A DNA stretch of 64,000 bases from a virus. The notes beneath the pieces are model-generated. The model worked only from the letters and a program-made list of their open reading frames with translations, searched no databases and was not told the DNA's origin. A program made the translations under genes and the position numbers. How positions within the stretch are numbered: the first letter of the stretch is position 1; the number at the start of each line of letters is the position of its first letter. This document shows, in pieces, positions 9,203 to 64,000 of the stretch. The DNA lies in the IMG/VR virus record IMGVR_UViG_3300023276_000008, positions 1 through 64,000 of that record; one strand, written 5' to 3'.

Positions 9203-9301
9203 TCATTCATCCACAGAAGCTCCTGTGAAACCATTAATATCTCCTAAGAGCGTATTGGGTTCCACGGCTTTATTCGCCTCAAATGTATGCACTGTTGTCA
9301 T
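9203..9301 (-). CDS. Tiny late gene, 32 aa
   Basis: The frame begins MTTVHTFEANKAVEPNTLLG and ends with GASVDE. It is preceded by a perfect T4-type late promoter TATAAATA (9313-9320) 11 bases before the ATG and followed within 35 bases by a strong terminator. This is unusual dedicated regulation for so short a gene and argues that it is real and strongly expressed late. No homologue or membrane segment recognised; function unknown. Confidence 0.55.
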   Translation of the reverse strand: MTTVHTFEANKAVEPNTLLGDINGFTGASVDE

Positions 9302-9312
9302 TGTCTTGCCCT

Positions 9313-9320
9313 TATTTATA
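9313..9320 (-). promoter_or_regulatory. Late promoter TATAAATA
   Basis: Exact match to the T4 late promoter core; serves the 32-residue gene at 9301. Confidence 0.7.
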
Positions 9321-9354
9321 CTTTATTGTACTAAAAGTCAAATTAAATCTTCAA

Positions 9355-9612
9355 TTATTTAAAATTATTATGTCTTCGACGCTTTTTTCTCTGAATTTTA
9401 TCTATTACACTAGCTACTAGATATAGGATTCCTCCTCCAATGGCTACTATAACAAATAAACCAAATATAATTGCTAATGGAATCCACATGGGTGACACCA
9501 CCCACCACCAACTCCATTCAATCACACTACATAGTTTAAGTGTGATGAATACGATTGTTAATAGACCGCAGAAACCTGCATTACCTGAACTTACTTGTGC
9601 ATTTTTGCTCAT
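9355..9612 (-). CDS. Transmembrane Fragile-X-F-like protein, 85 aa
   Basis: The core FCGLLTIVFITLKLCSVIEW followed by SWWWVVSPMWIPLAI matches the small two-helix TMEM/Fragile-X-F family common in phages and prophages (residues 14-70), with a basic tail KRKKRRRHNN-like. Its biochemical role is not established. It ends the run of minus-strand metabolic genes. Confidence 0.7.
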   Translation of the reverse strand: MSKNAQVSSGNAGFCGLLTIVFITLKLCSVIEWSWWWVVSPMWIPLAIIFGLFVIVAIGGGILYLVASVIDKIQRKKRRRHNNFK

Positions 9613-9628
9613 AATTTTATATTTGTTA

Positions 9629-10156
9629 TTACCACGTTTTATCTAAATTTTGCATATCTTTCAAGTGGTCGAAAGCATACATGTCTTCATACTGGCTTGC
9701 AACATCGACTAAGAGTATTTCCTTAACCTCTCCATCATTAACAATCTTATTTGCATAAGTTGTCAGTTGACTGATAAGATTCTTAATCATTTGAGTTGTC
9801 ATTTCCAACTTCAAGTCATAGTGGAACGTAATGTTCTCTCTAAACTTAGTTGGATCATCATCAATATAGCTGAGTTTTAAATCTGCCGTATTGAGGATAT
9901 TGATACTGGTTTCTTCATAAACCTCTCGAATTGCTGCCTCAAGCACTGTCTCATTCCAATCTACATAACCACAAGGGAAACATAATTTATCTTCGTGTGT
10001 CATATCTTCGCCTCGACGTAGTACAACATATCGTTTATTACCAGTTTCAATATTCTTGATTCCAATATGTACTGCTGCTGCCACTGATCGACTTAGGTAT
10101 ACTGTACGACCATCAGCAGTTTCAACACACTCGTTATCTTTATTTTTAAATTTCAT
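9629..10156 (-). CDS. Nudix hydrolase, 175 aa
   Basis: A complete Nudix box spans residues 63-85 (G...E...REVYEETSI), so the metal-binding REuxEE glutamates are present; these enzymes hydrolyse nucleoside diphosphates linked to another moiety. In phages such as KVP40 a Nudix domain is fused to an NMN adenylyltransferase; here it is a separate gene five bases after the membrane gene and two genes from the adenylyltransferase. ADP-ribose or NAD-like dinucleotides are therefore plausible substrates, but that is inference. Confidence 0.85.
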   Translation of the reverse strand: MKFKNKDNECVETADGRTVYLSRSVAAAVHIGIKNIETGNKRYVVLRRGEDMTHEDKLCFPCGYVDWNETVLEAAIREVYEETSINILNTADLKLSYIDDDPTKFRENITFHYDLKLEMTTQMIKNLISQLTTYANKIVNDGEVKEILLVDVASQYEDMYAFDHLKDMQNLDKTW

Positions 10157-10161
10157 ATTTA

Positions 10162-13497: not shown

Positions 13498-14463
13498 CTA
13501 TATCTTGAGAAATTTTTGCATTTTTCTTTTCCAGTTTTTATCATCATATCTTATCTCCAAAAGAGGTATGTTATTTTCCTCACAAAAATCTCTCTTAATT
13601 TGATCTTTTTTCTGCCTACCCAATAAAGCATCTTCGCCGCCAAAATGATCTATTGATATATAATGTTGAATTCCTTGAAATTCTATCAATTTATTATTGA
13701 TGAAGAAATCAAATTTTAGAGATCTTTTATCTATACAACCATCAAAAGTTTTTTGTTCTTCAAATATCATACCACATTCATTAAAATAATTTCTGATTTT
13801 TTTCTCCCCTTTAGAAGATCTACACTTAGGGCAACCTCCACCATTTAAGTGTAATTGAGGGGTTTGTGCAAATTCTCCATGTTTTGTGCATTCTATTTTA
13901 ACCTTTTCTTTAATTTTTTTATAGTCTACTTGATTGTACTCATATAAATCGCCATGAACACATTTTGCCTTTTCTAGAAACCAATTAGTATCCTTAGTCT
14001 TCGATTTAAATCTCTTTTCTTGTCCACATATATAACACCCCTTGCCCCGAATATGTTCAATTCCTTTCTGCATAAATTCCCCATGCACAGGACATGTTAT
14101 TACTATATGATCTGATGTTCCTGTGTATGAATCTCTATCATATACATAATAATCTCCATGAGTGTGTAAAGCTTTCTCTTCAAATTCATCAAAAGAAATT
14201 GTATTTTTTATAGAAGCTCTATGCCTCGAACATTTTTTACAGCCCCGACCCATTAAATGAGAATTAGGTATTTGTAAAAATGCCCCATGAAGAGGGCATA
14301 CTATTTCCACTTTTTGTTTACTTTTTTCATACACAACCCTCGAATAATCGAATGTGTTGCCATGGACTTCTATAGCCTTTAATATAAACTCCTCGGTGGT
14401 TAATGTCTTAAATAATCCATCTGAGGAGTTTATATTTTTTGATTGCGAATCTCTCTGTGTCAT
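13498..14463 (-). CDS. Homing endonuclease with zinc modules and Vsr/EDxHD-like domain, 321 aa
   Basis: Residues 20-210 contain three repeats of a zinc-binding unit (CPLHGAF..H..GRGCKKC, CPVHGEF..GKGCYIC, CTKHGEF..GGGCPKC), as in DUF723-type DNA-binding modules. The C-terminal 100 residues carry GEKKIRNYF, KFDFFI and IEFQGIQHY, the Glu/Asp/Gln-His pattern of Vsr-like EDxHD nucleases. It is inserted just downstream of nadV and has its own late promoter CTAAATA five bases from the ATG, unlike its neighbours. Base composition is more A/T-rich than the neighbours. Confidence 0.8.
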   Translation of the reverse strand: MTQRDSQSKNINSSDGLFKTLTTEEFILKAIEVHGNTFDYSRVVYEKSKQKVEIVCPLHGAFLQIPNSHLMGRGCKKCSRHRASIKNTISFDEFEEKALHTHGDYYVYDRDSYTGTSDHIVITCPVHGEFMQKGIEHIRGKGCYICGQEKRFKSKTKDTNWFLEKAKCVHGDLYEYNQVDYKKIKEKVKIECTKHGEFAQTPQLHLNGGGCPKCRSSKGEKKIRNYFNECGMIFEEQKTFDGCIDKRSLKFDFFINNKLIEFQGIQHYISIDHFGGEDALLGRQKKDQIKRDFCEENNIPLLEIRYDDKNWKRKMQKFLKI

Positions 14464-14468
14464 GAGAG

Positions 14469-14475
14469 TATTTAG
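14469..14475 (-). promoter_or_regulatory. Late promoter CTAAATA
   Basis: Five bases upstream of the homing endonuclease ATG at 14463; the only late motif in this metabolic region apart from 9313. Confidence 0.75.
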
Positions 14476-18881: not shown

Positions 18882-20024
18882 CTAGACTTTGATTTCTTTT
18901 CCAAGAGTCGTGGAAAGCGCACGATTTCCATTAATATGTACTTGTTCCACTGCTACATCAACATCATTATAATGAATGATGGAAAATCCATTCTGCCAAT
19001 CAGGTGCAGATGCATATACAGGACTCATATCACACATACATCCATTTTCATAGGCAATGTGTCTTGCTTCTGGACGACCACCAATACTTGGTACGCGACG
19101 AGATGTAGAACCCATTCTATGAGTATGATTACACATGACACTTGCATTCCACTTATCAATAAGACCCATAGCTGACGCTCCTGCTTTAGCACGTACTACA
19201 TCACCATGAACAATGTTAAAGTCAGCACCTAATGTTACAGTATCGACAAGTTCCATATCAAATCCTTTTGGTAGGAAGAGATTTTCGTAGGAAAGTTTCT
19301 CTCTTACTTCTGGAATTGATGCAAGTTCACCTAAACGTGTACTTAGGTATCTCCACCAACGTCCATCAATGGAATCGCCAGAGTGATTAGCATTAGTTTC
19401 TACAATACGTGAGTTTGGTGAGATCTGCGCAATGTTAAATAGTAGATCGTGATATGCAGTACGTTCTTGTTGCAAGTTGTAACTTGAACGAATATCTTTC
19501 GGATATGTACTAAGCGCAAACATGTCCAAGGTATCACCATTAAGAATGATTTGGTCTGGTTGAAGTTCACGAATTACCTCATAGAAGATGTTAATACTGT
19601 TATAGCACTCATGTCCAAAGTGGAAATCTCCCGCACATACAGCCACTTTATTGTCCCTACTAATTGTGGGTGTAGAAATGGTTTGGGTAGAAACCTCAAA
19701 TTTATTCGGAGCAAGTGACTCGATAAATTCAAGAAATCCTTCAAGGTTTTCATCAACCTGCTTTGGTGTAAGCTTAGGTTGTTTTGGATTAAGTGCTTTG
19801 TCGGGTAGACGTTTAAAATTCTTATTTACATGAGCTACACAGTTAGCTTCTTCAGTTTTTGCTGATGTACAAATCGGATCTTTGGACTCTGTAAGTTTAT
19901 CGAACCATCGACCTAGTGTTCTAGGTGAGATTCCGTATTCTTCTGCGACTTGGACTTTGGATTTTCCGTTAACCCATGCCATATATGCTTGTTGTTCTAG
20001 TTTCATAATTATTAATTGTTTCAT
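18882..20024 (-). CDS. Calcineurin-like phosphoesterase with N-terminal HTH, 380 aa
   Basis: Residues 8-45 form a helix-turn-helix (SKVQVAEEYGISPRTLGRWF). After a linker, metallophosphoesterase motifs follow: AGDFHFGHE (131-139), LNGDTLDMF (161-169), TNANHSGD, VHGD, and a C-terminal NHTH. These chelate two metals and cleave phosphodiesters, so DNA is a likely substrate given the HTH. The usual GNHD is NANHSGD. Its start overlaps the rmlB stop (ATGA). Confidence 0.75.
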   Translation of the reverse strand: MKQLIIMKLEQQAYMAWVNGKSKVQVAEEYGISPRTLGRWFDKLTESKDPICTSAKTEEANCVAHVNKNFKRLPDKALNPKQPKLTPKQVDENLEGFLEFIESLAPNKFEVSTQTISTPTISRDNKVAVCAGDFHFGHECYNSINIFYEVIRELQPDQIILNGDTLDMFALSTYPKDIRSSYNLQQERTAYHDLLFNIAQISPNSRIVETNANHSGDSIDGRWWRYLSTRLGELASIPEVREKLSYENLFLPKGFDMELVDTVTLGADFNIVHGDVVRAKAGASAMGLIDKWNASVMCNHTHRMGSTSRRVPSIGGRPEARHIAYENGCMCDMSPVYASAPDWQNGFSIIHYNDVDVAVEQVHINGNRALSTTLGKEIKV

Positions 20025-21016
20025 TGACCTTTGTAGTATGCTACATAGTGTTTAACTATTTCATCAATAGCATCCTCATATGGAACGGTTTCAAAACCAC
20101 GTAAATAGTATTTTGAAGTGATAGCATAGATCTTATCATGACCTTTTCTATCATCTACAAATTCAACACTATTTACCATAGTTTTTTCACTTTCAGGCAC
20201 TAGCTTATTATAAGCCGTCAATATGTCCTGAACCAATTCCAAATTATTCTTAGGTGTGCCTCCCGAAATGTTGTGAACACCTCTTGTGTGCTCTCCTGCG
20301 ATCTCTAAGATAGACTTGCAGTGGTCATCAACATGAATCCACTCTCTAATGTTGTCTCCTTCTCCATAAACAGGGATTTTCTCACCTGCAACCAACTTTG
20401 AAATGATAGTTGGAATAAATTTTTCTGTACGTTGGTAAATACCAAAGTTATTAGTACATCTTGTCACCAATACATCAATGTCATATGTACTTACATATGC
20501 CTCACACATAAGGTCTGCTGCTGCTTTTGATGCAGCGTATGGATTCCTTGGTTGTAATTGAGAATCTTCAGTATGGGGCTTTGCACTTGTAGTTAGGTGG
20601 TGTCCATACACTTCATCTGTACTGATTTGAATCATTTGGATATTATGCCCTTTCTCCTTTTCACACACTACATGATTTAGTAGTGCCATAGTGGATGTTA
20701 GGTTTGTTGCGAATGTTAGTGGATCTGAGATAGAACGATCAACATGTGATTCGGCAGCAAAATTGAAGATAACATCATATCTATCTACGTCTGGAGAAAA
20801 TGCATAGCGTTCAATGCGTGTATGACTCAAATCTACTATCTTGTTATCGTAGAATTCTTTCGAAAAATGTTGCCTAAGATTGAAGGCGGGGGCGTAGTCC
20901 ATACACATCACCAATCCAATGTTTGGATACATTCCTTCCAACGTGGCTAAGAAGTTTTGGGCTATAAATCCGCTAGTGCCAGTTATTAGCACTCGTTTTC
21001 CGTTTAGGTCGATCAT
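20021..21016 (-). CDS. rmlB: dTDP-glucose 4,6-dehydratase-like
   Basis: Extended short-chain dehydrogenase: NAD-binding GTSGF (13-17), ISTDEVYG (131-138), catalytic Y160-xxx-K164, RCTNNFG and the WIHVDDHC segment, all typical of RmlB. It dehydrates dTDP-glucose to dTDP-4-keto-6-deoxyglucose, the second step of dTDP-rhamnose synthesis. Partners rmlA and rmlD are encoded 31 kb away. The promoter lies so close that the mRNA should start at or beside the ATG. Confidence 0.88.
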   Translation of the reverse strand: MIDLNGKRVLITGTSGFIAQNFLATLEGMYPNIGLVMCMDYAPAFNLRQHFSKEFYDNKIVDLSHTRIERYAFSPDVDRYDVIFNFAAESHVDRSISDPLTFATNLTSTMALLNHVVCEKEKGHNIQMIQISTDEVYGHHLTTSAKPHTEDSQLQPRNPYAASKAAADLMCEAYVSTYDIDVLVTRCTNNFGIYQRTEKFIPTIISKLVAGEKIPVYGEGDNIREWIHVDDHCKSILEIAGEHTRGVHNISGGTPKNNLELVQDILTAYNKLVPESEKTMVNSVEFVDDRKGHDKIYAITSKYYLRGFETVPYEDAIDEIVKHYVAYYKGQ

Positions 21017-24306: not shown

Positions 24307-25109
24307 TATTTTATGAGGCTTGAATCTTCTGTTATTAGGGGTGTGAACACCATCTGCAATTGATATGCTTCTGGCAATATACCAGAACCTACCATACGCT
24401 GAGTACCTAATCCATTAAGCGAAAAGTTACTGCAATATGCCCAAGGAAGATCTCTATATCCTGGGATTTTGATCTTACATATTCTACTTGGCTCCATAAA
24501 TATAGAAGTCTTTCTAGTTGGTTTATTAATTCTTGCTAACTCTCTCACTAAGTCAATATTTTTATCATATCCTTTAGTTGAGCTAGTGTTTAATAATGTG
24601 AATGTCACTGTTATATCACTTGCCTTTTTTCCAAATTGTTGATATTGAGGTGTCTCTGGATATATAGTTCTACTTTGATCCGATAGACTCTCAAGGGCTG
24701 ATAGATTTTTTGACCTTACTGCTCCAGCAATTACACCACCAAGTTCTCCCATGAATCTAAATTCAGAATGAATATCAGATAACTTATCTCCAATTGCAGC
24801 AAGACCTTGCCCATTACCAACATTTCCCATTAAATTATCACTAAATGAATTTGAATAACTAATGTAGTTTGTGTCAAAGAATGGAAATGTATATGTATCT
24901 TCCTTTTCCGTATCATATAGACTATCATAGAAGGCTTTACCTGCTTCTGTGTTAACACCCTGTTTGATCAGATTCCTAGCCTTTCGAACAACACCCAAAT
25001 CTTTCATTCGATGAAATTGTATGTGAATTTTGGGACAATCCTTCAGTAGTTCAGTATCATTAGTATTGATACACCACGGAAAGTCCTTAATTACGTCAAC
25101 GGTAGCCAT
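24306..25109 (-). CDS. Baseplate tail-tube cap protein (gp48/gp54-like), 267 aa
   Basis: The end of the protein, PGYRDLPWAYCSNFSLNGLG then ILPEAYQLQMVFTPL, matches the 'PWA...L...G......LPEAY...M.F..L' pattern of T4 gp48/gp54, proteins that start the tail tube on the baseplate. The middle is Gly-rich. It has its own late promoter and precedes gp53. Whether it equals gp48 or gp54 cannot be decided. Confidence 0.65.
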   Translation of the reverse strand: MATVDVIKDFPWCINTNDTELLKDCPKIHIQFHRMKDLGVVRKARNLIKQGVNTEAGKAFYDSLYDTEKEDTYTFPFFDTNYISYSNSFSDNLMGNVGNGQGLAAIGDKLSDIHSEFRFMGELGGVIAGAVRSKNLSALESLSDQSRTIYPETPQYQQFGKKASDITVTFTLLNTSSTKGYDKNIDLVRELARINKPTRKTSIFMEPSRICKIKIPGYRDLPWAYCSNFSLNGLGTQRMVGSGILPEAYQLQMVFTPLITEDSSLIK

Positions 25110-25114
25110 ATATT

Positions 25115-25121
25115 TATTTAG
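25115..25121 (-). promoter_or_regulatory. Late promoter CTAAATA
   Basis: Five bases before the ATG at 25109 of the tube-cap gene; overlaps the end of the tape-measure gene. Confidence 0.8.
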
Positions 25122-26989: not shown

Positions 26990-26995
26990 TACTTG

Positions 26996-27002
26996 TATTT
27001 AG
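26996..27002 (-). promoter_or_regulatory. Late promoter CTAAATA
   Basis: Six bases before the tape-measure ATG at 26989. Confidence 0.8.
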
Positions 27003-29100: not shown

Positions 29101-29106
29101 CAATTC

Positions 29107-29113
29107 TATTTAG
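29107..29113 (-). promoter_or_regulatory. Late promoter CTAAATA
   Basis: Six bases before the ATG at 29100. Confidence 0.8.
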
Positions 29114-43582: not shown

Positions 43583-43589
43583 TATTTAT
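43583..43589 (-). promoter_or_regulatory. Late promoter ATAAATA
   Basis: Six bases before the ATG at 43576. Confidence 0.75.
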
Positions 43590-47566: not shown

Positions 47567-47572
47567 TGGATC

Positions 47573-47579
47573 TATTTAA
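47573..47579 (-). promoter_or_regulatory. Late promoter TTAAATA
   Basis: Six bases before the gp6 ATG at 47566; overlaps the end of the gp25 gene. Confidence 0.75.
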
Positions 47580-48067: not shown

Positions 48068-48073
48068 CAGTAG

Positions 48074-48080
48074 TATTTAG
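48074..48080 (-). promoter_or_regulatory. Late promoter CTAAATA
   Basis: Six bases before the gp25 ATG at 48067. Confidence 0.82.
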
Positions 48081-48094: not shown

Positions 48095-49570
48095 CTATAC
48101 TCTCTTAGTAATTTTTTTATTGGCTTTGAGGCTTTCACACACTTGCATCAGATCTAGAGTCATATCATCTACATCTAGGTTATGAATATTAGACATATAG
48201 CTTTCCGCGATTGAATCAAATGATTCTTCCAATTCATATGGAATCTGAGCCTTACCAAATAAGTTATTTGGATCTCTTGTATATGCCAAGGATTTTATGT
48301 GTTTGATGTGGTGGGGTTGCAACCTACCATCTGATTCTGATCCTGCTCCACCCATCACATCAGCGTTCTTTAAAAACGAAACTATGTTATTCATAGCATC
48401 ATTGTGATCTTTGGGGCTATTGTAATAGTCCTCATAGTCTAGTAATATATCTTCGAGGGATATACTGGCTAATACTGCTTCTTTTCCTAATAGAGCATCA
48501 AATTCTGCATTCATCTCCTCTGCCTTTGCAGTTAAATCCTCACTATCACGAATTGCTTTCTTTGCTACCCCACTAGGTTTAGCTGATCTCCCCTTAATAC
48601 CCAGAGCACTAGTTAACGCTTTATTGCTTTTTTTATCAACAATAGATTGTTTAAGTTTATCTAATCGACCTTTTGCTTTTCCAGAGTTGTTGATGATTTT
48701 ACCATATAGACTAGTTACAAAATTTTCCGCATTGAATCTGTTCATCACCCTTGAAATACCATTCATGCTGCCACTATCTTCAGTATTCCATAGATAATCT
48801 TTAAATGAATCTAATTTGTCTTTAACGTCTTCTTTAGATAATTTCATAATCCAATTAAGTGGATTTCTAGAATCTTCATACTCATATTCAAGAATGTTTC
48901 TGATGATAGGTGTCATACTGGATGGGTCGGAACTTAGGTATTTAAACAACTCTTTATTATCCATGTTCTCCAGTTTATCCATTATACCAGCATGTCTATC
49001 CAACTCTGCTTGAACCATTGCAGCTTCTCCATCATCAAGCCCTTCTAAACTTCCACCTAATGCTAAAGCATTCTTGGCAGAATCGCTTAACTCCATGTTA
49101 TCAATATCATCTTCTAATGTACTTGCCAGTTCAGAAGTCATGTTATCAACTGCTTTGGAAATTTCTTCCTGTAGATAAGTCCAGTGAGTATTTAGGAGAA
49201 TATCATAATTTCTCTCCCAGTGGTTTTTTGAAATATTATCCGCAGTAGATTGCATTGCTCCGTCTACACTAGCTCCCAATGCATCCATTTCTCGTTCTGT
49301 GGCAGACACTTCCTTCTCTTCTCCTTTACCTTGTGAAATGGTTCTATCAACTTCATCACTCAATGTACCTAATACATATTGAGGATTCTCAGAAGGGTCA
49401 ATATGTTTAGCTATATTATTAACAAATTCCTTATCAGCGGCTAATAATTCCACTGCGAACTGCTGAATGCCTTGTCGGTCCTTTTCCATACCTAATGCAC
49501 TATTATCATTCAGCCCACGCTTATGATATCTTTCATCAGTTGCTTCTGCTATTAATTTATTCAAGCTCAT
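48095..49570 (-). CDS. Putative internal/head-associated protein, 491 aa
   Basis: Unrecognised, helical and charged (EREMDALGASVDGAMQ; KGRLDKLKQSIVDKKSN). The N-terminus MSLNKLIAEATDERY has an hydrophobic-x-E pattern like T4 capsid-targeting peptides cut by the prohead protease. Late promoter five bases upstream. Could be an injected protein; no enzymatic motif seen. Confidence 0.55.
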   Translation of the reverse strand: MSLNKLIAEATDERYHKRGLNDNSALGMEKDRQGIQQFAVELLAADKEFVNNIAKHIDPSENPQYVLGTLSDEVDRTISQGKGEEKEVSATEREMDALGASVDGAMQSTADNISKNHWERNYDILLNTHWTYLQEEISKAVDNMTSELASTLEDDIDNMELSDSAKNALALGGSLEGLDDGEAAMVQAELDRHAGIMDKLENMDNKELFKYLSSDPSSMTPIIRNILEYEYEDSRNPLNWIMKLSKEDVKDKLDSFKDYLWNTEDSGSMNGISRVMNRFNAENFVTSLYGKIINNSGKAKGRLDKLKQSIVDKKSNKALTSALGIKGRSAKPSGVAKKAIRDSEDLTAKAEEMNAEFDALLGKEAVLASISLEDILLDYEDYYNSPKDHNDAMNNIVSFLKNADVMGGAGSESDGRLQPHHIKHIKSLAYTRDPNNLFGKAQIPYELEESFDSIAESYMSNIHNLDVDDMTLDLMQVCESLKANKKITKRV

Positions 49571-49575
49571 ATCCC

Positions 49576-49582
49576 TATTTAA
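49576..49582 (-). promoter_or_regulatory. Late promoter TTAAATA
   Basis: Five bases before the ATG at 49570; divergent partner of the late promoter at 49595. Confidence 0.78.
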
Positions 49583-49594: not shown

Positions 49595-49601
49595 GTAAAT
49601 A
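49595..49601 (+). promoter_or_regulatory. Late promoter GTAAATA
   Basis: Five bases before the ATG at 49607. Confidence 0.72.
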
Positions 49602-49606
49602 TAGGT

Positions 49607-50152
49607 ATGACTTCCAAATTCAATGAATTATACGAATCTTACTCAAAGCGATACGAGCTTGGAGGCTTTTTAGTTGGCGATTTCGTGGTATTCAGACCAG
49701 ATTATAAAAACAATGAATCTTATAAGGCTATGAATAGTGTTATGAAGACACATGTTGACCAAGTAGTTGATTCAGGTGTACCACTTCGAGTTAGTGGACT
49801 AGGTAATAAGTATGGCACTAATACCAACTTAGAGCGTTATATCAAGCCCGATGATGCAGTAGTTACTGTGTCTGTCGATGAAGGTGGTGGACGCTGGTTA
49901 GGTAAGATTTCAGTAGGTGCTGGTATGTTAGACATTGCAACCAACACAAGATTTTGTGGGGTTGGTGATGAAAACAAAAAACCTCTTAAAAAAGGAGAAA
50001 CTTGGACACATGGTGAATATGAAGTTGATGAAGACCACATTACTCGCCAAACCGATAAAGGTAATGGCAAAAACTCTAAAACAAATATTAAGTTGGAACA
50101 CACTTCTGACTTAAATGACATCGTAACCAATTTATTAAACGAAAAAGTATAA
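49607..50152 (+). CDS. Late virion/internal protein, 181 aa
   Basis: Unrecognised. Starts MTSKFNELYESYSKRYELGG, a short hydrophobic helix followed by E, similar to other capsid-targeting-like N-termini in this window. The body is beta-type (VVTVSVDEGGGRWLGKISVG). A small internal or head protein is the best guess. Confidence 0.52.
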   Translation: MTSKFNELYESYSKRYELGGFLVGDFVVFRPDYKNNESYKAMNSVMKTHVDQVVDSGVPLRVSGLGNKYGTNTNLERYIKPDDAVVTVSVDEGGGRWLGKISVGAGMLDIATNTRFCGVGDENKKPLKKGETWTHGEYEVDEDHITRQTDKGNGKNSKTNIKLEHTSDLNDIVTNLLNEKV

Positions 50153-50155
50153 ATA
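50148..50155 (+). promoter_or_regulatory. Late promoter TATAAATA
   Basis: Exact T4 late-promoter core, five bases before the ATG at 50161 and overlapping the upstream stop codon. Confidence 0.88.
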
Positions 50156-50160
50156 CTGAT

Positions 50161-50847
50161 ATGTATAAGAGAAATTCGTACAAGTTACTTTCAGAGCAAT
50201 ATGATGTGATGCTCCTTAAAGAATCCGCGCCATCATTAAATATTTATGAACTACAATCTAAGATTGGGTACATGAATTTGTCTGAAGCTACGTGGACTGC
50301 TGAATTCTCCGAAAAGATTCTTAATGAATTCTTTGGTGGTGGTGTAAAAGCTCTTGGTAAAGGTATTGGTGGTGCAATTGGCGGTGCTGCAAAAAAGGCT
50401 GGTGGGAAGCTTAGACAAGCTGGAGCAGATAAAGCAGCAGATTTGGCTGGAAAAGCTAAGGCTGGCGCACAAGCTGGAATGGATAAACTCCAAGCAGGTG
50501 CAGATGCAGTTAAAGGCAAAGTTCAGGATGGTGCTGACGCAGTTAGAGATGGTATCGACAATGTTAAGGATCGTGCTGGTAATATGATGGATGATGTTAA
50601 AGATGTTTATCAACAAGGTGGACATGAAGCACAACTTCAGAAAGCACAACAACGAGCTGAGAAGACAGTTGGCGATCTTATGTCAATCCTTCAAATGGCA
50701 GAACAGGAATATGGTCTTGCATTCAGTGGTCCAGTTGAACAACTCCCACTTGGTGAAGTTGTTAGTGAGCTAGTCAATGCGGCTAAGGGTGCTGGAAATA
50801 TTAAACGTTCCGCACAAAGAAAACTAGGTAAGTTTGGAGCTAGATAA
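50161..50847 (+). CDS. Ala-rich LEA/phasin-like internal protein, 228 aa
   Basis: The N-terminus MYKRNSYKLLSEQYDVMLLK is a basic helix that may target the prohead. Residues 60-150 are an Ala/Gly/Lys/Asp repeat (AGADKAADLAGKAKAGAQAG; QDGADAVRDGIDNVKDRAGN) resembling the 11-residue amphipathic repeats of LEA proteins. The perfect TATAAATA promoter and strong terminator indicate an abundant late product, perhaps packaged with DNA. Confidence 0.55.
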   Translation: MYKRNSYKLLSEQYDVMLLKESAPSLNIYELQSKIGYMNLSEATWTAEFSEKILNEFFGGGVKALGKGIGGAIGGAAKKAGGKLRQAGADKAADLAGKAKAGAQAGMDKLQAGADAVKGKVQDGADAVRDGIDNVKDRAGNMMDDVKDVYQQGGHEAQLQKAQQRAEKTVGDLMSILQMAEQEYGLAFSGPVEQLPLGEVVSELVNAAKGAGNIKRSAQRKLGKFGAR

Positions 50848-53657: not shown

Positions 53658-53984
53658 ATGAAAACTTTCAAAAAATTTATATTAGAATATCGCGCTAATC
53701 TAGAAGACGGCACTCCCAAACCATCAGTTCAAGTACATAATGGAAAAAATCCCAATAGGATGAATAAAAAGAAGCTTCATACAGTTGGGGATTATCAGCC
53801 TGTGAATGGAGATGCCCATAAAGTGGGTAAGATGCTAACTGGTGCAGAATTAGACAACCTATTAACTGATCATGGATTTGATTTTATCGATGGAGAGACT
53901 CATGGTATTAATAATTCGGGAAATGCTCTATATATGTACTCAGTAAATGGACAAAAGATCGGTAAGATCGTTGATAATAAGTAA
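53658..53984 (+). CDS. Internal capsid protein with T4-type capsid-targeting sequence, 108 aa
   Basis: Begins MKTFKKFILEYRANLEDG, almost the same as T4 internal proteins (MKTYQEFIAEA), whose N-terminal peptide directs them into the prohead and is cut by gp21 after an LxE/IxE site. Here the expected cut is after FILE. The remainder (VGKMLTGAELDNLLTDHGFD) is a small globular domain. Such proteins are injected with DNA. The start MKTFKKF is preferred over an ATG 48 bases earlier. Confidence 0.65.
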   Translation: MKTFKKFILEYRANLEDGTPKPSVQVHNGKNPNRMNKKKLHTVGDYQPVNGDAHKVGKMLTGAELDNLLTDHGFDFIDGETHGINNSGNALYMYSVNGQKIGKIVDNK

Positions 53985-53987
53985 ATA
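53981..53987 (+). promoter_or_regulatory. Late promoter GTAAATA
   Basis: Five bases before the ATG at 53993, overlapping the stop of the internal-protein gene. Confidence 0.75.
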
Positions 53988-53992
53988 TTAAT

Positions 53993-54898
53993 ATGGATAA
54001 CCACTGCCCAACGACACCACTTTCTTGTTTAGAACCTAGTAATATTTTTGCAGGTGTTTATAAAAAGGAATGTTCAAATTTTGCAAATCCAAATAATTTT
54101 CAAGCAGAAAGATCTATTTTCAATAGCTTAATTAATGAGAAAATTAACAATTTTGGTATAGATATAGACTATTATGTACACACATACAATTTATCAAGTG
54201 CTGATAACTTCTATGGAGAAGACCTAGATGCTCCATATTATGGACCTATTTCTCTTCGTGTTGAGAAGGATTATACATTCTCAGGAGTCCCATTAGGTAT
54301 TCATGGGTTTGATTCAAATGACGAAATTACTTTTTATGTGACGTTTGATACCTTTGAGGAGGCATTTGGCGACCATAGGGTTCATGAAGAGAGTGGGCAA
54401 CGAATTGAGCCGAAGGCAGATGATATGTTCATCATCAAAACTTGGGGATGTGATAGACCTAATGGTAGAACTGCTAAGAAATTTGTGGTTACTGAGGCTA
54501 TAGATGAAGATCCAGAGGATTTGAATGTATTGATGGGGCACTATGTTTGGAAAGTGACTGCTCGACGTTATGACTACTCCTACGAAGCTAATATTCCAGC
54601 TAGTGATGACAAATACCAAGTTTATGATAATACATTCTCAGGAGTATTAACTAGCGATATATCTATAAAGGGTCCATTGGAAGGATTAGTAGATAGTGAA
54701 GGAGATTTATTGATCGGGTTTGGTGGGGAGACTTTAGTTACCCAAACTACTAGTCAACAATTATCTTCTGACGACAAACCATATGATTATGATGTGGATG
54801 TCGAGGTTGAGGATGAGATATATGATCAGAGTATTAATGATCAACGAATCTACGGAAACACTGACCAAGATTCATCTCCTTATGGAGACTACTACTAG
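53993..54898 (+). CDS. Neck protein (gp14-like), 301 aa
   Basis: Follows the gp14 layout: FNSLINEKINNFGIDIDYYV, then GEDLDAPYYGP, then TFSGVPLGIHGFDSNDEITF and RIEPKADDMFIIKTWG with KKFVVTEA. T4 gp14 joins head and tail at the portal. The final 100 residues are acidic and Gln/Asp/Tyr-rich. A strong terminator follows. Confidence 0.62.
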   Translation: MDNHCPTTPLSCLEPSNIFAGVYKKECSNFANPNNFQAERSIFNSLINEKINNFGIDIDYYVHTYNLSSADNFYGEDLDAPYYGPISLRVEKDYTFSGVPLGIHGFDSNDEITFYVTFDTFEEAFGDHRVHEESGQRIEPKADDMFIIKTWGCDRPNGRTAKKFVVTEAIDEDPEDLNVLMGHYVWKVTARRYDYSYEANIPASDDKYQVYDNTFSGVLTSDISIKGPLEGLVDSEGDLLIGFGGETLVTQTTSQQLSSDDKPYDYDVDVEVEDEIYDQSINDQRIYGNTDQDSSPYGDYY

Positions 54899-54982: not shown

Positions 54983-55468
54983 TTATGAGAAGAACTCTTG
55001 ACCAGCCTTGAGCTTGCCAACTTTGTTCTGCTTACCGTTATCGATATTCTCTTTACCCTTTTCAGTACCAGTTTTATCAGTATACTTGCTATCTGCTGTG
55101 CGCTTCTTAGGCTTCACTTTGCCTTTAACTAGCATATCTTTATTCTTAGCAACTACATCAGTGTCAGCAACTTCTTCTTCATCTTCTTCAAAATCAAGAC
55201 CAAATTCATCACCTTCTTCTTCGCCACCTTCTTCACCGAATTCGTCTTCTGATTCTTCTTCACCGCCAACAGCAGCTTGGATTACCTCAAGAAGTTTTTC
55301 AGCAGTAGCCTTATCAAGAGTGAGAGTAACCTCATCACCTTCTTCATCACCAAAGTCTTCACCTAAGTCGAAGTCATCACTATCTTCTACACCAAGTGCA
55401 TCTAGTTCTTCTTCTTCTCCGAATGATTCTTTGAATACTTTTTTATAAATTGCGTTGAAACTATCCAT
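54983..55468 (-). CDS. Acidic prohead core-like protein, 161 aa
   Basis: Extremely acidic (ELDALGVEDSDDFDLGEDFG and long Glu runs) with a basic C-terminus (KGKVKPKKRTADSKY). The N-terminus MDSFNAIYKKVFKESFGEE resembles the targeting helix of T4 prohead core proteins. Similar acidic proteins scaffold or fill T4-like proheads (gp67/68 class). The late promoter fixes the ATG at 55468; a longer frame from 55501 includes promoter DNA. Confidence 0.6.
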   Translation of the reverse strand: MDSFNAIYKKVFKESFGEEEELDALGVEDSDDFDLGEDFGDEEGDEVTLTLDKATAEKLLEVIQAAVGGEEESEDEFGEEGGEEEGDEFGLDFEEDEEEVADTDVVAKNKDMLVKGKVKPKKRTADSKYTDKTGTEKGKENIDNGKQNKVGKLKAGQEFFS

Positions 55469-55473
55469 ACATC

Positions 55474-55480
55474 TATTTAG
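55474..55480 (-). promoter_or_regulatory. Late promoter CTAAATA
   Basis: Five bases before the ATG at 55468. Confidence 0.85.
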
Positions 55481-55539: not shown

Positions 55540-55546
55540 TTAAATA
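55540..55546 (+). promoter_or_regulatory. Late promoter TTAAATA
   Basis: Five bases before the GTG at 55552; decides a non-ATG start. Confidence 0.72.
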
Positions 55547-55551
55547 AAATT

Positions 55552-57780
55552 GTGAACAAAGTCGTATCATCATTTTCAGATCTACATCCAGTGCCTTTAA
55601 AGGATCATGGGAATTATACATTCAAACAATTCCAACGCTCTTATAGTGGTGGTTACTCTATGAATTTTGCCAACGCTTTATCTGGAGTTGTCGATAGCAA
55701 GACTAAGAATAGTTCCGAAGTTAATATCAGCAACTTCTATAAACTCACAGATATAATTAATATCGACAACGATACAGCCAAACCTAGTATATATAAAACA
55801 ACCTTATCTCTTGGTGATAAATATGTGAGATTTTATGAGATTGACCCCACCCCCTATATAATAAATGATATTAGTAGAGACGCACTATTATATGGAGCTA
55901 TTGGATTATCGTTAGATGGTGATATAGACACATTGTTTGAAATTGAATATATTGATGTTAATGTGGCAACTATATCATTCACTAACGGGTTGGGGGAGAG
56001 ATTTTTACTTTGTTCAACCTCTGACATAAAGTTAGCCTTTGTGTTGGAAGATGAATTAATATTAGATAATGTGATATTCCGCCCCCAACATTTCCTTTAT
56101 AATTACAATCCGTTGGTGAATGGAATCACATTATCTAAACCCGATGATTATGTGGTTATAGTTGAGGGAGATTCCCTTTTATTGAGACAATATGGTAGTG
56201 GCATGTCTCAGATTATAAAAAACAACACCTTTATACTTTCTAGAAATGTCACCGACCAAAATACCTATCATAATATGAACTCATCATTCATCACATACAC
56301 AGACAGTTCTCTGGCGACAGATGTAGATGGCATTGTATATGATAAGAGTAATAATTTTGTTATACATAGATCATTGGAAGACGATAGGGCTTCCATTGTG
56401 TTCGCTAAAAATAGGTTAGATGAGAATGGGACATCCTTCACCTTCCAAACCTCAGATAGTTTCACAAATAATTTGAATGGAGACAATCTAAACAATCATA
56501 GGGTATATTCTGCCATATTTCAGGACATAGATACTAAGGAAGATGATACCCTCAATCTTGGGTATGTGACATATGATCGTGCATACCCCATCAAAACTGG
56601 TTATACCCCATTCAGGACACCAACATCAATGTATCCCTATACATCGATTGACATCAACGACACCTCATTCTCAAAGACTGGAGCATTCTATAGTGATAGT
56701 CCTATATATGCAGATAAGATAAGAACTGATATAGTTCCTACCGAAGACGGTTACCAATATGCATGTACTTGGCTCAGTGGCAACTTTGTGGATGATGCTG
56801 TGTGGGTAGATAGATATTATTATCCTAATTACATTCAGAAGGAAGAAGCTATTTCACTCAACAGCGCATTACTAGTAACGTATAATGAGTATGTTGAAGA
56901 TTTAATCAGAAATAACTCCAACTTCAGAGATGAGATTATCAAATCCACTATTTTTGACAAGAGGAGTGATATGAATATATTACCAGACACTGAATATGTA
57001 TATGATAGACTAACTTTATTGGACGAAGATATTCATCCTGAATGTATTGAGCTATTAGACATGTATAAGGCAGTAAATAACTCTAATGCAATGTCAATGG
57101 ATTTTACTTTCTATGGATCTAATGACGATTGGGTATTAAAGAGTGATAGGAATGATATCGATGCAGGTATCACTATTACCAAGAGTGGAACTACTATCAA
57201 ATTTGAGTATGTAGTTTATATAAGGACTTCTGGCACATATGATACTTATGTAGTGGAGGAATCATATGATCGCTTCTCTGATAATTTATTTGCATTTACG
57301 TTTAATAGTAAAAATGGTCTTGGTTATGTGGTACTCAATAACAAAATCATACTTGAATTGAATCTGAATCCGTATAAATATGGACAGGATAGGTTATTGC
57401 AGGGGGATTTTCTATTCGATGGCGAATTCTTCACAGGTAGTAATGATTATATCAAAACCTTCATCCTCGAAGATAAATCTATCACAAAATCAAGAATATC
57501 TATACTGTCATACATAAGAGGAATCACGGCTGCTAACGATATGTCTATATATATACCTTGTGGACAAGTAAATATGACTGATTCAGTTGGACAACTACAC
57601 ACTCTATGTGGTAATAAGGGTAGTAAGAGTGATAATATTACAATTGGTGTTGGCAATCTTCATATTGAAAACAATGAAAGTCTGACAAACGCCATCTCTG
57701 GTGTTATTATTAACACATTTGCCGACAACACACCTCTAAACTCCTCTCTCAATAACATTACATTCAACAATTACGATTAA
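55552..57780 (+). CDS. Large virion protein, GTG start, 743 aa
   Basis: Beta-rich, Asp/Asn/Ser/Tyr-heavy protein with no enzyme motif, probably an extended structural or fibre-type protein (YNPLVNGITLSKPDDYVVIV; FTFNSKNGLGYVVLNNKIIL). Positioned before a second large structural protein and the fibre genes. The GTG is chosen because the late promoter lies five bases upstream, the same spacing as for ATG genes. Confidence 0.6.
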   Translation: MNKVVSSFSDLHPVPLKDHGNYTFKQFQRSYSGGYSMNFANALSGVVDSKTKNSSEVNISNFYKLTDIINIDNDTAKPSIYKTTLSLGDKYVRFYEIDPTPYIINDISRDALLYGAIGLSLDGDIDTLFEIEYIDVNVATISFTNGLGERFLLCSTSDIKLAFVLEDELILDNVIFRPQHFLYNYNPLVNGITLSKPDDYVVIVEGDSLLLRQYGSGMSQIIKNNTFILSRNVTDQNTYHNMNSSFITYTDSSLATDVDGIVYDKSNNFVIHRSLEDDRASIVFAKNRLDENGTSFTFQTSDSFTNNLNGDNLNNHRVYSAIFQDIDTKEDDTLNLGYVTYDRAYPIKTGYTPFRTPTSMYPYTSIDINDTSFSKTGAFYSDSPIYADKIRTDIVPTEDGYQYACTWLSGNFVDDAVWVDRYYYPNYIQKEEAISLNSALLVTYNEYVEDLIRNNSNFRDEIIKSTIFDKRSDMNILPDTEYVYDRLTLLDEDIHPECIELLDMYKAVNNSNAMSMDFTFYGSNDDWVLKSDRNDIDAGITITKSGTTIKFEYVVYIRTSGTYDTYVVEESYDRFSDNLFAFTFNSKNGLGYVVLNNKIILELNLNPYKYGQDRLLQGDFLFDGEFFTGSNDYIKTFILEDKSITKSRISILSYIRGITAANDMSIYIPCGQVNMTDSVGQLHTLCGNKGSKSDNITIGVGNLHIENNESLTNAISGVIINTFADNTPLNSSLNNITFNNYD

Positions 57781-61245: not shown

Positions 61246-61257
61246 TAACTACTAAAC

Positions 61258-62790
61258 ATGAATTCAATTAACATATTAGAAGATACTATTCTCAAATTAA
61301 TAGTTCGACAAGGGGCTGATGCAGATCGTTTAGCCACTGTATTAGATAGTGGTGAGCTTGGCTACACATCAGACACCAAAAGACTCTTTGTGGGTGATGG
61401 TGTGAGTGCTGGTGGGGTTCTTATAGGAAATAAGTTCCTAGGTAGTGCTATGGATGTAACTACACTATCTCCTGCTGAAGTAGGTGACTGCGTATTTGAC
61501 GAAAATACTAACAACCTTTTGATATTATCTACAAATACTGGATCTGTATTAACGGATTGGAGTCCTGTAGGTGGATTATATACTCCTACAGATGGGAGTA
61601 TTGTCGTATCAGCTAGTAATGGTGTATCTGTGGGTAGTTTATCTGCTGGACATGTATCTGAAGACCTTCTAGGGAGTAATTTTACATTAGATGTTGGTGA
61701 AAGGATCACATTGACAGACACAATCTCAGTTACTACTATCCAAGGAACAAATTCGGACCCTCTTATAATTGAAGGTAAAGTAAATCTTGGTGGTCTAACA
61801 TATACATATCCCACAACTAGAAGTAATGACGGATATCTACAGACAGATGGTGTTGGAAACCTTGTTTGGGACACTTTAAAGGCTGAAGCTACATATTTTG
61901 TGGCTAATAGTGCTGGTTCTTTGCCGATTGGTACGATTACCGCCACCGTGTCTAATACTATAGGCTCTAAATGGCTACTATGTGATGGGTCATCATATGA
62001 TACTAGTGTATATGCTGATCTTTTTGCGGAAATTGGATACACTTATGGTGGATCTGGTTCTAATTTCAATGTACCAGACTACGCAAATAGTATATTATAT
62101 GGCGATGATGGAGGGTCAACAGTTTATGACCTATTGGCAGACCTTGGACCGAGTGCGTTTACAGTTGTCCCGACTAATTACTTCATTAAGAGTGAAGCTG
62201 ATGATGTATTCGAGAGTACGTGGACATTTGAAGCTCCTCTTTCGGCTACTATAGGCGGTGTTGATGTTACTGGAACTACAATCAACCCACTTTCAGGAGA
62301 TTTAGTAGTTTCTATGCCAGATTCTACATCAATTAAAGCTAACGTATCCTTCAATCAAGAAGGCACGGTAATTAAAGGATATAATGTAACATCGGTTGCG
62401 TTGACAAGCAGGTCTGTCGCAAATACTGAGATATTTCTCCCATATGGATCAGTATTCGAAGAATATGATGTCGTTACTCCCTCTATATATTATGATGGTA
62501 GTGGTTATACTGGAGCATACATACTTAATCTCACAGAACCTTTGTCCAATCCAGATACCGCAGTTATAGATATTGCAGCATATAATTATTATCCCGAATC
62601 TATGGATGTTCCTACGACTAACACATTCCAAAAGTTTGATTATGTAGTCTTGGATGACACTACTATATTGGTAACAATATCAAATACTCATCGTATAGTT
62701 GGTGAAAGTGTGAATAGGGTGTTTTTGGATTCTGGTTATGACTATAATTCACTTATTAGTGGTACAAGATTCAATGTGACCATTAAATAG
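61258..62790 (+). CDS. Tail fibre protein with tropism module and collar domain, 510 aa
   Basis: N-terminal IVRQGADADRLATVLDSGEL then DTKRLFVGDGVSAGG parallels the preceding fibre. A central SKWLLCDGSSYDTSVYADLF then SNFNVPDY is a second tail-collar domain. The C-terminal 170 residues are beta-rich and variable, likely a receptor-binding tip. A candidate for host-range change by recombination with its neighbour. Confidence 0.75.
   Translation: MNSINILEDTILKLIVRQGADADRLATVLDSGELGYTSDTKRLFVGDGVSAGGVLIGNKFLGSAMDVTTLSPAEVGDCVFDENTNNLLILSTNTGSVLTDWSPVGGLYTPTDGSIVVSASNGVSVGSLSAGHVSEDLLGSNFTLDVGERITLTDTISVTTIQGTNSDPLIIEGKVNLGGLTYTYPTTRSNDGYLQTDGVGNLVWDTLKAEATYFVANSAGSLPIGTITATVSNTIGSKWLLCDGSSYDTSVYADLFAEIGYTYGGSGSNFNVPDYANSILYGDDGGSTVYDLLADLGPSAFTVVPTNYFIKSEADDVFESTWTFEAPLSATIGGVDVTGTTINPLSGDLVVSMPDSTSIKANVSFNQEGTVIKGYNVTSVALTSRSVANTEIFLPYGSVFEEYDVVTPSIYYDGSGYTGAYILNLTEPLSNPDTAVIDIAAYNYYPESMDVPTTNTFQKFDYVVLDDTTILVTISNTHRIVGESVNRVFLDSGYDYNSLISGTRFNVTIK
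62783..62789 (+). promoter_or_regulatory. Late promoter TTAAATA
   Basis: Six bases before the ATG at 62796; overlaps the fibre gene end. A nearer ATG at 62791 is closed by TAA at once. Confidence 0.7.
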
Positions 62791-62795
62791 ATGTA

Positions 62796-63587
62796 ATGAA
62801 GGCTACGGGATTTATAGATAGTACAAAATTATACACATCACCACACGATATCGTGTGGTCGTTTGATTATAATCTTGTTGGTGTGGGAGATGATTATGCT
62901 ATTGGCACATATCTAGTACCCGCTGTATCTATTCCGATATATACCCTACATGAGTTGGAAAATCTATCAATAACATCTATTGATGGTGATGTGTTTCTCC
63001 TTGATGATAATACATCTGAGATGTTAACGGACGAGAGTGGTAATCTGTTAATACAGGAAGAAGAAACCAATACTCCTCTAATTTCCATAATTTTTGACTC
63101 CACTGGGTATAACGCACTATCTAGCGTGGATAAGGATGGTGTTGGGGTGAATTCTATTAAATCTGATAGTTTAATTGTTAGGGGTCCAAGTAACAATCTA
63201 CTATATAATGAGTCATTGAGTGCGATACATGATGATTTTATAATACCAACCCCAGAAGATGTGTTCAAATCGTTGAGATTTAAATATTCTAACGTGGGTA
63301 AACTATTAACTATATCTCAGGGATATGGTTCTGAATATGTTACCATGATTGAATTGGTATTAGACACCAACGAGGTTCCATTAGGTCATTGTTATCCAGC
63401 ATTTGCATACACTTCCCCAGTTTCTTCTACAGACACAGGTGATCAAGGAATGTCCATATCTAAATTACAATCAGTTGGTGATGTGAATGCATATACGACA
63501 CACGTTAACGACTTTGTTCCCCTATCATCAGATATAGATGCATTATTCACCACTATTTCTGGTATATCTGCTGATATATTAGTTTAA
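62796..63587 (+). CDS. Fibre-associated virion protein, 263 aa
   Basis: Unrecognised beta-rich protein (YNLVGVGDDYAIGTYLVPAV; KLLTISQGYGSEYVTMIELV). It follows the fibre gene by six bases, has its own late motif and resembles other fibre-connector proteins only in composition. Confidence 0.55.
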   Translation: MKATGFIDSTKLYTSPHDIVWSFDYNLVGVGDDYAIGTYLVPAVSIPIYTLHELENLSITSIDGDVFLLDDNTSEMLTDESGNLLIQEEETNTPLISIIFDSTGYNALSSVDKDGVGVNSIKSDSLIVRGPSNNLLYNESLSAIHDDFIIPTPEDVFKSLRFKYSNVGKLLTISQGYGSEYVTMIELVLDTNEVPLGHCYPAFAYTSPVSSTDTGDQGMSISKLQSVGDVNAYTTHVNDFVPLSSDIDALFTTISGISADILV

Positions 63588-63614
63588 ATGTATATCATCC
63601 AATTAATAACTTAA

Positions 63615-63621
63615 CTAAATA
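63615..63621 (+). promoter_or_regulatory. Late promoter CTAAATA
   Basis: Five bases before the ATG at 63627. Confidence 0.82.
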
Positions 63622-63626
63622 TATTT

Positions 63627-64000
63627 ATGGCTGTATGTACTGATTGTTATCCCGATGAATTGATATGTGGTGGTTGGTGGGACGGATATTATGGAGGTGA
63701 TGTCAACATACAAAATGTTCGATTTGATGTTCCTATATTTCCTACTGGAGCGACTTCCTATTATGGGGAAGAAATATACGGTAGTATGGGGGATTCATTC
63801 CTTGATGGTGTTCGAGTTAAATGTAATGCATATTTGTACGACAATTTCGGGACAAATGCATGGTTTATTACAGTAACCGTTGAATCGCTTGATGAATTTG
63901 GGTCTATTATATATACAGAAGTAAAAGATCATAGTGCAGATCGAGTTATTGATTTTGGACCACCTGTGGTAACTGACGCTTGTTACCCTGATATGAATAC
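63627..64000 (+). CDS. Virion protein, partial at window edge
   Basis: An open frame from MAVCTDCYPDELICGGWWDG runs to the right edge (124 codons and one extra base seen, no stop). Cys-rich and Gly/Trp/Tyr-rich start, then beta-type sequence (WFITVTVESLDEFGSIIYTE). Late promoter five bases upstream. Probably another surface or fibre protein. Confidence 0.6.
   Translation, partial: MAVCTDCYPDELICGGWWDGYYGGDVNIQNVRFDVPIFPTGATSYYGEEIYGSMGDSFLDGVRVKCNAYLYDNFGTNAWFITVTVESLDEFGSIIYTEVKDHSADRVIDFGPPVVTDACYPDMN

Follow-up and report, generated by a model that had tools for sequence, protein, structure and literature searches.

The locus and its recurring element

The window considered here, the 64,000-nucleotide stretch analysed, corresponds to bases 1-64,000 of the 84,951-base IMG/VR virus record IMGVR_UViG_3300023276_000008, itself a fragment. 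Profile matches to the large terminase (TerL), the tail sheath, the baseplate wedge, the tail tube, a phage SSB, a primase, a DnaB-like helicase and PhoH place its phage in the T4 superfamily. The element with which we are concerned is the hexamer TAAATA, which recurs on both strands at a fixed five or six bases before start codons, and which we read as the core of a T4-type late promoter placed in such a way that the transcript would begin at the start codon itself.

Naming gap the number of bases between the end of TAAATA and the start codon, we compared the window, irrespective of gene calls, with 100 shuffled versions. TAAATA-N5-ATG occurs 17 times (shuffle mean 2.94, maximum 8) and TAAATA-N6-ATG 9 times (mean 2.47, maximum 6), values reached by 0/100 shuffles, so that the spacing is indeed tighter than chance, as a preliminary description of this DNA had proposed with shuffled sequence as the test. 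Its counts, 15 starts with gap 5 and 6 with gap 6, were recovered from those ATG-initiated open reading frames (ORFs) that start in the window and reach 60 aa or more, as was the gap of 5 before the GTG start at 55552. We then added positions 64,001-84,000 (L001), and the counts for 84 kb refer to these 84,000 of the 84,951 bases. Of the 141 TAAATA on the two strands, 24 have an ATG at gap 5 and 12 at gap 6, every other gap from 0 to 30 having 0-7; when an ORF of at least 60 aa is required, 19 and 8 remain, with 0-2 at other gaps. No like pattern is found for the 14 other anagrams of the hexamer, the ORF-linked maximum of which at gaps 3-8 is 7 versus 19, and this for AAATAT, which overlaps the motif itself. 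Variants with one mismatch show no clear enrichment at gap 5 (11, and likewise 11 at gaps 9 and 17). A reversed-pattern control in the related record G001 gave 4 occurrences, versus 48 for the motif.

Among called genes of the 84 kb, 26/92 have the element at gap 5 or 6, any other pair of gaps between 1 and 24 yielding at most 2, and 10 additional copies of TAAATA lie within 40 bases 5' of a called start; the figure of at least 28 genes given earlier depends, therefore, on how far upstream one looks. The range 9203-64000 first assigned to the pattern was too narrow, the pattern itself being real: it comprises, for example, a minus-strand gene starting at 4358, and continues beyond 64,000.

Identity of the element and predicted start site

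Passages of PMC1524935 place the T4 late promoter TATAAATA at -13 to -6 and have the Aeh1 late promoter, CTAAATA, begin at -12; passages of a review of T4 late transcription (PMC2988020) give a/gC at -13/-12 for Aeh1 and a -35 region that is not conserved. In a logo pooled from 167 gap-5 sites of five records, where TAAATA is fixed by site selection, a purine stands at -13 in 142/167, a pyrimidine at -12 in 122/167 (C 61, T 61) and T at -4 in 109, and a -35 element is absent (no position between -40 and -30 exceeding 0.11 bits). The TA which T4 has at -13/-12 is not recovered, T standing at -13 in 15/167, and the likeness to the [AG]C of Aeh1 is partial. The whole is better written [A/G][C/T]TAAATA than TATAAATA, and its identity as a T4-type late promoter core, R-Y-TAAATA (R purine, Y pyrimidine), is well supported. 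Mild A/T waves are also seen upstream of TAAATA in the five records of the clade described below, near -17, -27 and -37, at intervals of roughly a helical turn.

In T4 numbering TAAATA spans -11 to -6, and gap 5 would therefore put +1 on the A of ATG, a placement that we draw from promoter geometry. A pyrimidine precedes the start codon in 152/167 gap-5 sites versus 124/208 non-motif starts (two records, p 1e-12). In the window's record it does so at 19/19 gap-5 sites, and at 8/8 gap-6 sites the ATG is preceded by a purine, itself preceded by a pyrimidine (p 5e-7): what stays fixed is the spacing between the Y(-1)R(+1) step and the core, and not that between the step and the ATG. Copies of TAAATA at longer gaps in this record have YR at +5/+6 in 6/10 (p 0.02). 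It is only after this splitting by gap that the signal is significant, the base before the start of all motif genes, gaps pooled, giving p 0.11 and 0.12 in two records.

Position in operons

Genes preceded by the element are mostly operon heads: 2/26 of them overlap or abut (within 4 bases) an upstream co-directional gene in the window's record, versus 31/65 of the others, and 2/52 versus 72/142 in G001. They are enriched in the structural region, with 18/39 called genes between 21.0 and 63.7 kb as compared with 8/53 elsewhere (p 0.002). To speak of a whole structural gene set, as was done at first, was therefore too strong; genes with no element at gap 5 or 6 include the terminase and those at 43603, 57784, 60127 and 61258.

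Conservation in a clade and contrast with leadered relatives

The relationship to named phages is distant. Megablast of window positions 40000-60000 returned no near match in the phage collection. At the protein level, the best full-length TerL identity is 33.9% (to B23), helicase identities are 24.5-29%, and, among the matches listed, the sheath reaches 40.8% over one third of its length and the baseplate about 23-26% over 54-60% of its length; the proteins 57784-59439 and 64542-65366 had no match in our searches. A scan of genome contigs brought up two contigs of ruminant metagenome-assembled genomes (MAGs) at 30-31%, with TAAATA at gap 5 or 6 in 4/15 and 1/10. The phage group is apparently an undescribed branch of the T4-related phages.

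Searches with TerL, baseplate and sheath yielded 87 loci besides L007, from which 46 were dropped as redundant (shared 25-mers) and 41 kept. We sorted these into 22 clade loci (256,901 bases), hand-picked on identity and gap pattern, which makes their counts circular, 5 sister, 2 mixed and 11 far loci; L120 was left unassigned. The 22 clade loci have 90, 25 and 9 ORFs at gaps 5, 6 and 7 and at most 5 at any other gap up to 35, with a pyrimidine before the ATG in 86/90 gap-5 sites. Three of them (L085, L133 and L135) lie in or match the long records G005-G007, and the 19 others give 67, 21 and 6 (303 TAAATA). Taken with no hand choice at all, 38 loci with 779 TAAATA give 84, 30 and 16, the next gap having 12. 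Outside the clade, gap 5 is met 3 times in the sister, 9 in the mixed and 5 in the far loci. In long records, ORFs at gap 5/gap 6 number 45/6 (G001), 43/5 (G005), 42/11 (G006) and 17/6 (G007), and 4/4 in the sister record G008. The clade relatives share with the window's record a terminase and a sheath that are roughly 50% identical.

T4, Syn9, B23 (160,000 of 243,633 bases covered) and KVP40 (240,000 of 244,834) behave otherwise: gap 5 is found in 4/690 TAAATA, and the first ATG comes at 20-40 bases in 138. When TAAATA-N5-ATG was compared with a reversed control in 12 named phages, HTVC008M had 14 versus 4, T4 10 versus 5, CPt10 9 versus 6 and Mel-JY01 10 versus 11, the remaining phages having at most 5. 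In the relatives the same motif stands at other distances from the sheath ATG, 16-18 bases in the sister group and 21 bases, with a Shine-Dalgarno (SD) sequence, in L152, and the sister-group position implies that the start codon does not dictate where the motif lies. The sister-group sheath promoter (L136-L141, L143-L148, L154-L161) reads CTAAATAATA, with no evident SD between it and the ATG, and its spacing represents an intermediate leader state.

A sheath tree of 21 rows supports the 10-row group predicted to be leaderless at 94/92, slightly below a strict threshold, and at 100/100 the sister group, the pair L152/L153 and the named phages. Reciprocal comparison of the window's record with G001 gave 42 pairs (protein identity 20-63%), in which the motif is present in both members of 8 and in neither of 24; its presence or absence is shared above chance (p 0.009). 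An exact or variant core stands at gap 5 or 6 in 12/20 TerL loci examined, several of them near-copies and five reading TAAGTA; the TerL of the window has no exact element. In the L130 sheath the motif is absent before the leftmost ATG, and this start (817 aa, longer than in relatives) is probably misplaced.

Sigma70-type promoters, Shine-Dalgarno sequences and host

A second class of promoter is placed likewise. In five clade records an ATG comes 6 or 7 bases after the end of TTGACA-N16..18-TANNNT in 22/126 sites, versus 1/78 in T4, Syn9, B23 and KVP40 (p 1.6e-4), and the first ATG falls 15-59 bases from the site in 30 cases in these leadered phages versus 19 in the clade (p 2e-6). The sigma70 -10 hexamer occupies -12 to -7, and gap 6 would therefore again put +1 on the A. 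Upstream of genes, TTGACA-N15..19-TANNNT is enriched, with 7 versus 0.1 expected for 24 genes of the window's record and 8 versus 0.2 for 37 genes of G001; TATAAT alone is not (5 versus 4.2 and 4 versus 6.6, respectively). The promoters had first been described as late, a word too narrow for the whole, since sigma70-type promoters also stand at leaderless distance.

The near absence of SD motifs, noticed at the outset, holds genome-wide. AGGA at -4 to -11 precedes 28/780 genes in five clade records, where 26 are expected from upstream control bins, and 137/657 versus 13 expected in the four leadered phages. An SD core is found before 0/26 and 0/52 motif genes (window's record and G001) and before 3/66 and 8/142 other genes, near the shuffled expectation; 15/22 T4 structural genes have one.

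As to the host, the Bacteroidota-type early promoter TANNTTTG was tried and rejected, with 0 versus 1.7 expected (24 genes, window's record) and 2 versus 2.9 (37 genes, G001); as it is not enriched, an ordinary Bacteroidota is an improbable host. Phage-encoded bS21 and WhiB, the latter an actinobacterial marker, were not found in G000 or G001.

The putative late sigma factor and its partners

A homologue of gp55, the T4 late sigma factor, is present in the three clade records longer than 150 kb (phrog_234; G001, E 1e-25; G005, 8e-25; G006, 6e-27); the five virus records of lesser length, G007-G011 (54-139 kb), yielded none. In G001 and G005 it lies between genes that we read as a UvsW-like helicase and a gp47-like phosphoesterase; in G006 an ORF that we read as GIY-YIG-like intervenes. 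The G001 protein is 37% identical to T4 gp55, and a profile of four gp55 proteins, T4 included, matched only T4 gp55 structures (7d7c, 7d7d). The gp45 clamp (phrog_223) was detected in G001 (4.8e-13) and G005 (8.4e-11) and not in G006 or G000; the clamp match of G001 is overlapped by G001_92, with which protein 70354-71112 of the window's record shares 28% identity. A further gp55-family match, in a yak caecum MAG (G012:C113:361416-361892, E 3e-26), has an internal TAG and possibly belongs to a phage in which TAG is recoded.

Individual sites

The elements of the window are collected in Table 1. Between the start codons of the divergent genes 48095-49570 (-) and 49607-50152 (+) there are 36 bp, occupied by two elements. 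At the HNH homing endonuclease gene 29725-30582 the element faces a short out-of-frame ORF, which may damp translation of the endonuclease.

Table 1. Promoter-like elements standing before start codons in the window
Element	Gene or ORF	Position of element	Strand	Remark
TAAATA-N5-ATG	gene 3705-4358 (217 aa)	4356..4369	-	outside the range first described
TAAATA-N5-ATG	HNH homing endonuclease 13498-14463	14461..14474	-	
TAAATA-N5-ATG	gene 24306-25109 (267 aa)	25107..25120	-	G001 orthologue: gap 6
TAAATA-N6-ATG	tape-measure-like gene 25118-26989	26987..27001	-	
TAAATA-N6-ATG	tail tube family gene 28501-29100	29098..29112	-	G001 orthologue without exact element
TAAATA-N5-ATG	tail tube family gene 29187-29720	29718..29731	-	G001 orthologue: gap 5
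TAAATA-N5-ATG	6-codon out-of-frame ORF	30588..30601	-	overlaps start of HNH gene 29725-30582
TAAATA-N5-ATG	gene 30928-31716 (262 aa)	31714..31727	-	
TAAATA-N5-ATG	tail sheath gene 31792-34092	34090..34103	-	clade relatives: gap 5 or 6
TAAATA-N5-ATG	tail tube family gene 34121-34723	34721..34734	-	G001 orthologue: gap 6
TAAATA-N5-ATG	gene 34728-35465	35463..35476	-	G001 orthologue without exact element
TAAATA-N5-ATG	gene 37087-37386	37076..37089	+	
TAAATA-N6-ATG	gene 40742-43576 (944 aa)	43574..43588	-	G001 orthologue: gap 6
TAAATA-N6-ATG	baseplate wedge gene 45749-47566	47564..47578	-	G001 orthologue: TAAATA at gap 7
TAAATA-N6-ATG	gene 47582-48067	48065..48079	-	
TAAATA-N5-ATG	gene 48095-49570	49568..49581	-	divergent from 49607-50152
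TAAATA-N5-ATG	gene 49607-50152	49596..49609	+	G001 orthologue: gap 5
TAAATA-N5-ATG	gene 50161-50847	50150..50163	+	
TAAATA-N5-ATG	gene 53993-54898	53982..53995	+	G001 orthologue without element
TAAATA-N5-ATG	gene 54983-55468	55466..55479	-	
TAAATA-N5-GTG	gene 55552-57780	55541..55554	+	G001 orthologue: GTG, gap 5 too
TAAATA-N6-ATG	gene 62796-63587	62784..62798	+	
TAAATA-N5-ATG	300-aa ORF extending beyond window end	63616..63629	+	
TTGACA-N16-TAGGGT (sigma70-type)	ORF 7488-7922	7929..7956	-	6 bases before leftmost ATG; predicted leaderless from sigma70 numbering
TTGACN-N16..18-TANNNT (sigma70-type, relaxed -35)	nucleotide-sugar epimerase ORF 20021..21016		-	leftmost ATG 6-7 bases past element

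Three side features of the window deserve a record. A tRNA cluster lies at 1018-8391 on the minus strand (9 by ARAGORN, 10 by Rfam, with an additional tRNA at 1880-1951). The large terminase gene, 37383-40247 (-), has an insertion that its relatives in alignment A1 share, a putative intein judging by its end motifs. The tail tube family phrog_45 is matched by three genes (28501-29100, 29187-29720 and 34121-34723), an unusual multiplicity.

Leaderless late transcripts: the proposal and its rivals

These observations may be understood as follows. Late promoters of the form R-Y-TAAATA, devoid of a -35 element, would have been shifted against the start codon, where they would be read by the host's RNA polymerase in association with a gp55-like sigma factor of the phage. 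At gap 5 transcription would begin on the A of ATG, with a pyrimidine at -1, producing a leaderless mRNA; at gap 6 the leader would be of 0 or 1 base. Initiation at the 5'-terminal AUG (GUG in one case) would translate these messengers. Genes that lack the element are often internal to operons and begin with no SD. Sigma70-type promoters are placed likewise, at gap 6 from the -10 hexamer. The motif, its spacing and conservation, the gp55 homologues of relatives, the lack of SD and the operon-head position are observed, and we consider the explanation as a whole to be probable. What was first noticed stands, and so does the core of its interpretation, as a prediction and once two points are corrected: roughly half of the genes in the structural region are concerned, not all, and early promoters are concerned too. 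The T4-type placement at the start codon is well supported, because the logo, gp55 in relatives, the pyrimidine at -1, the operon-head position, conservation in the clade and the contrast with leadered relatives concur. The start of transcription itself is deduced from T4 and sigma70 numbering; the sigma factor that would read the motif, the translation of leaderless messengers and the nature of the host are likewise inferred.

Because the sigma70-type promoters are placed in the same way, the phage looks adapted to a host favouring leaderless or SD-independent initiation. We lean modestly towards a broader view, in which early promoters read by host sigma70 and late ones read by gp55 would have shifted throughout the clade, infection running largely on leaderless, SD-less mRNAs; the leader, which sister groups still possess, would have been lost once, at the base of the clade, to match host ribosomes that favour leaderless or SD-free starts.

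Several points weigh against this construction. Motif state disagrees in 10/42 orthologue pairs. No more than 18/39 structural-region genes have the element, and 18/65 element-less genes lie more than 30 bases from a co-directional neighbour, so that some operon heads have no recognized promoter. The YR rule is not uniform: 17/25 gap-6 sites of the 22 clade loci have T before the ATG, the six gap-6 sites of G001 are mixed, and longer-gap TAAATA of G001 have YR at +5/+6 in only 4/17, the background level. For the sigma70-type promoters, relaxing the -35 to TTGA(NN) weakens the peak (24/1006 at gap 6, followed by 12 at gap 5), and TTGNNN/TATAAT shows no peak at leaderless distance. The phrog_234 search did not detect gp55 in the window's own record, an 84,951-base fragment, and it matches 7/14 cellular control genomes, which is why neighbourhood and alignment matter for the gp55 call. 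The three gp55 homologues (L020 1429-1869 -, L166 1489-1938 +, L164 1447-1893 -) lack the T4 C-terminal tail, and gp33 (phrog_254) was found in 0/4 records, although a short divergent protein could be missed; the factor set therefore differs from that of T4. That tail bears the clamp-binding epitope in T4, according to passages of PMC2988020. The promoter class and the sigma factor thus appear T4-like from sequence, and late transcription may not be clamp-tethered as it is in T4.

One might suppose that the promoters are real and that most messengers come from upstream read-through, or start a few bases elsewhere, translation proceeding mainly from leadered polycistronic mRNA. Many genes are indeed arranged head to tail, and the start may slip, because gaps 5, 6 and 7 all occur; yet the 36 bp between the divergent starts 49570 (-) and 49607 (+) are filled by two promoters, and the spacing is kept in relatives at about 50% protein identity and missing in leadered ones, which makes this reading unlikely. 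A little more improbable still is that TAAATA, at -11 to -6, serves translation initiation in an SD-less host, as an A/T-rich context and not a promoter. SD words are at background level, and A is common at -3 (0.51-0.59 in four relatives, 0.42 in the window's record, motif genes included) and at -6 (0.54-0.58 and 0.48), the positions at which, in passages of PMC6847099, adenines help translation in Flavobacterium johnsoniae; this SD-less bacterium has, in the same passages, mostly leadered mRNAs (87% over 10 nt). Such an element should, however, serve operon-internal genes too, yet few have it; an invariant hexamer kept at a single precise spacing does not resemble a loose A-rich context; the hexamer is the published late core of T4 and Aeh1, and relatives encode gp55; and the distance from motif to ATG is 16-18 bases in the sister group, as against 20-40 in T4 relatives. 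Chance or a gene-calling artefact in an AT-rich genome, where TAAATA is naturally common (141 in 84 kb), is refuted by the shuffles, the anagrams, the reversed pattern of G001 and the AT-rich T4 and B23, which show nothing alike.

If the late messengers are indeed leaderless, T4 late transcription, a large and well-understood system, exists in a leader-free form. It would then become testable how leaderless mRNAs carry high late expression, what phage gp55 requires to fix the start with single-base precision, and whether loss of the leader tracks the translation style of the host. For annotation, the promoter would indicate the start codon, as at the GTG of 55552, and the geometry of promoter and start would provide a sequence signature for an uncultured phage group.

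Comparison with known systems

With the late promoters of the T4 family, served by gp55, gp33 and gp45, the clade shares the TAAATA core, the missing -35, the use of both strands and the position before structural genes, as well as gp55 and clamp homologues in its members; its purine/pyrimidine at -13/-12 comes partly close to the a/gC of Aeh1. It differs in that, in T4, Syn9, B23 and KVP40, promoter and ATG are separated by 20-40 bases that include an SD, where the clade has 5-6 bases and no SD, and in that, compared with T4, its gp55 is tailless and gp33 was not detected in four records. Among the matches listed in open-licence PMC papers, none described T4-type late promoters giving leaderless messages in the T4 lineage.

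Leaderless genes of Actinobacteria and Deinococcus-Thermus have a Pribnow-type box at leaderless distance, as do the early promoters of the clade; they are cellular, unlike the phage genes of the clade. The Thermus phage phiYS40 is not known to have a T4-type sigma factor. Most of its middle and late mRNAs are leaderless in passages of PMC3594737, so that late-phase phage genes would be carried by leaderless mRNAs there as predicted for the clade. Its host group, Deinococcus-Thermus, has a high share of leaderless genes, 39.4% in passages of PMC3160421. In the AR9 paper (passages of PMC5312081) phage transcripts are said to be "often leaderless", AR9's own 5' untranslated regions being of 26-491 nt.

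A further parallel is found in the Pelagibacter phage HTVC008M, where, as in the clade, 12 ORFs have TAAATA at gap 5, often as TAAATAGTA..ATG. Unlike the clade, its genome is otherwise SD-rich (AGGA in 52/144 genes), and its sheath gene has an SD and groups with those of B23 and Syn9. Passages of PMC7029224 relate that middle and late promoter prediction by the cyanophage method failed in pelagimyophages, and promoters at gap 5 may be part of the reason. HTVC008M may thus be a second, though partial, instance of leaderless late transcripts.

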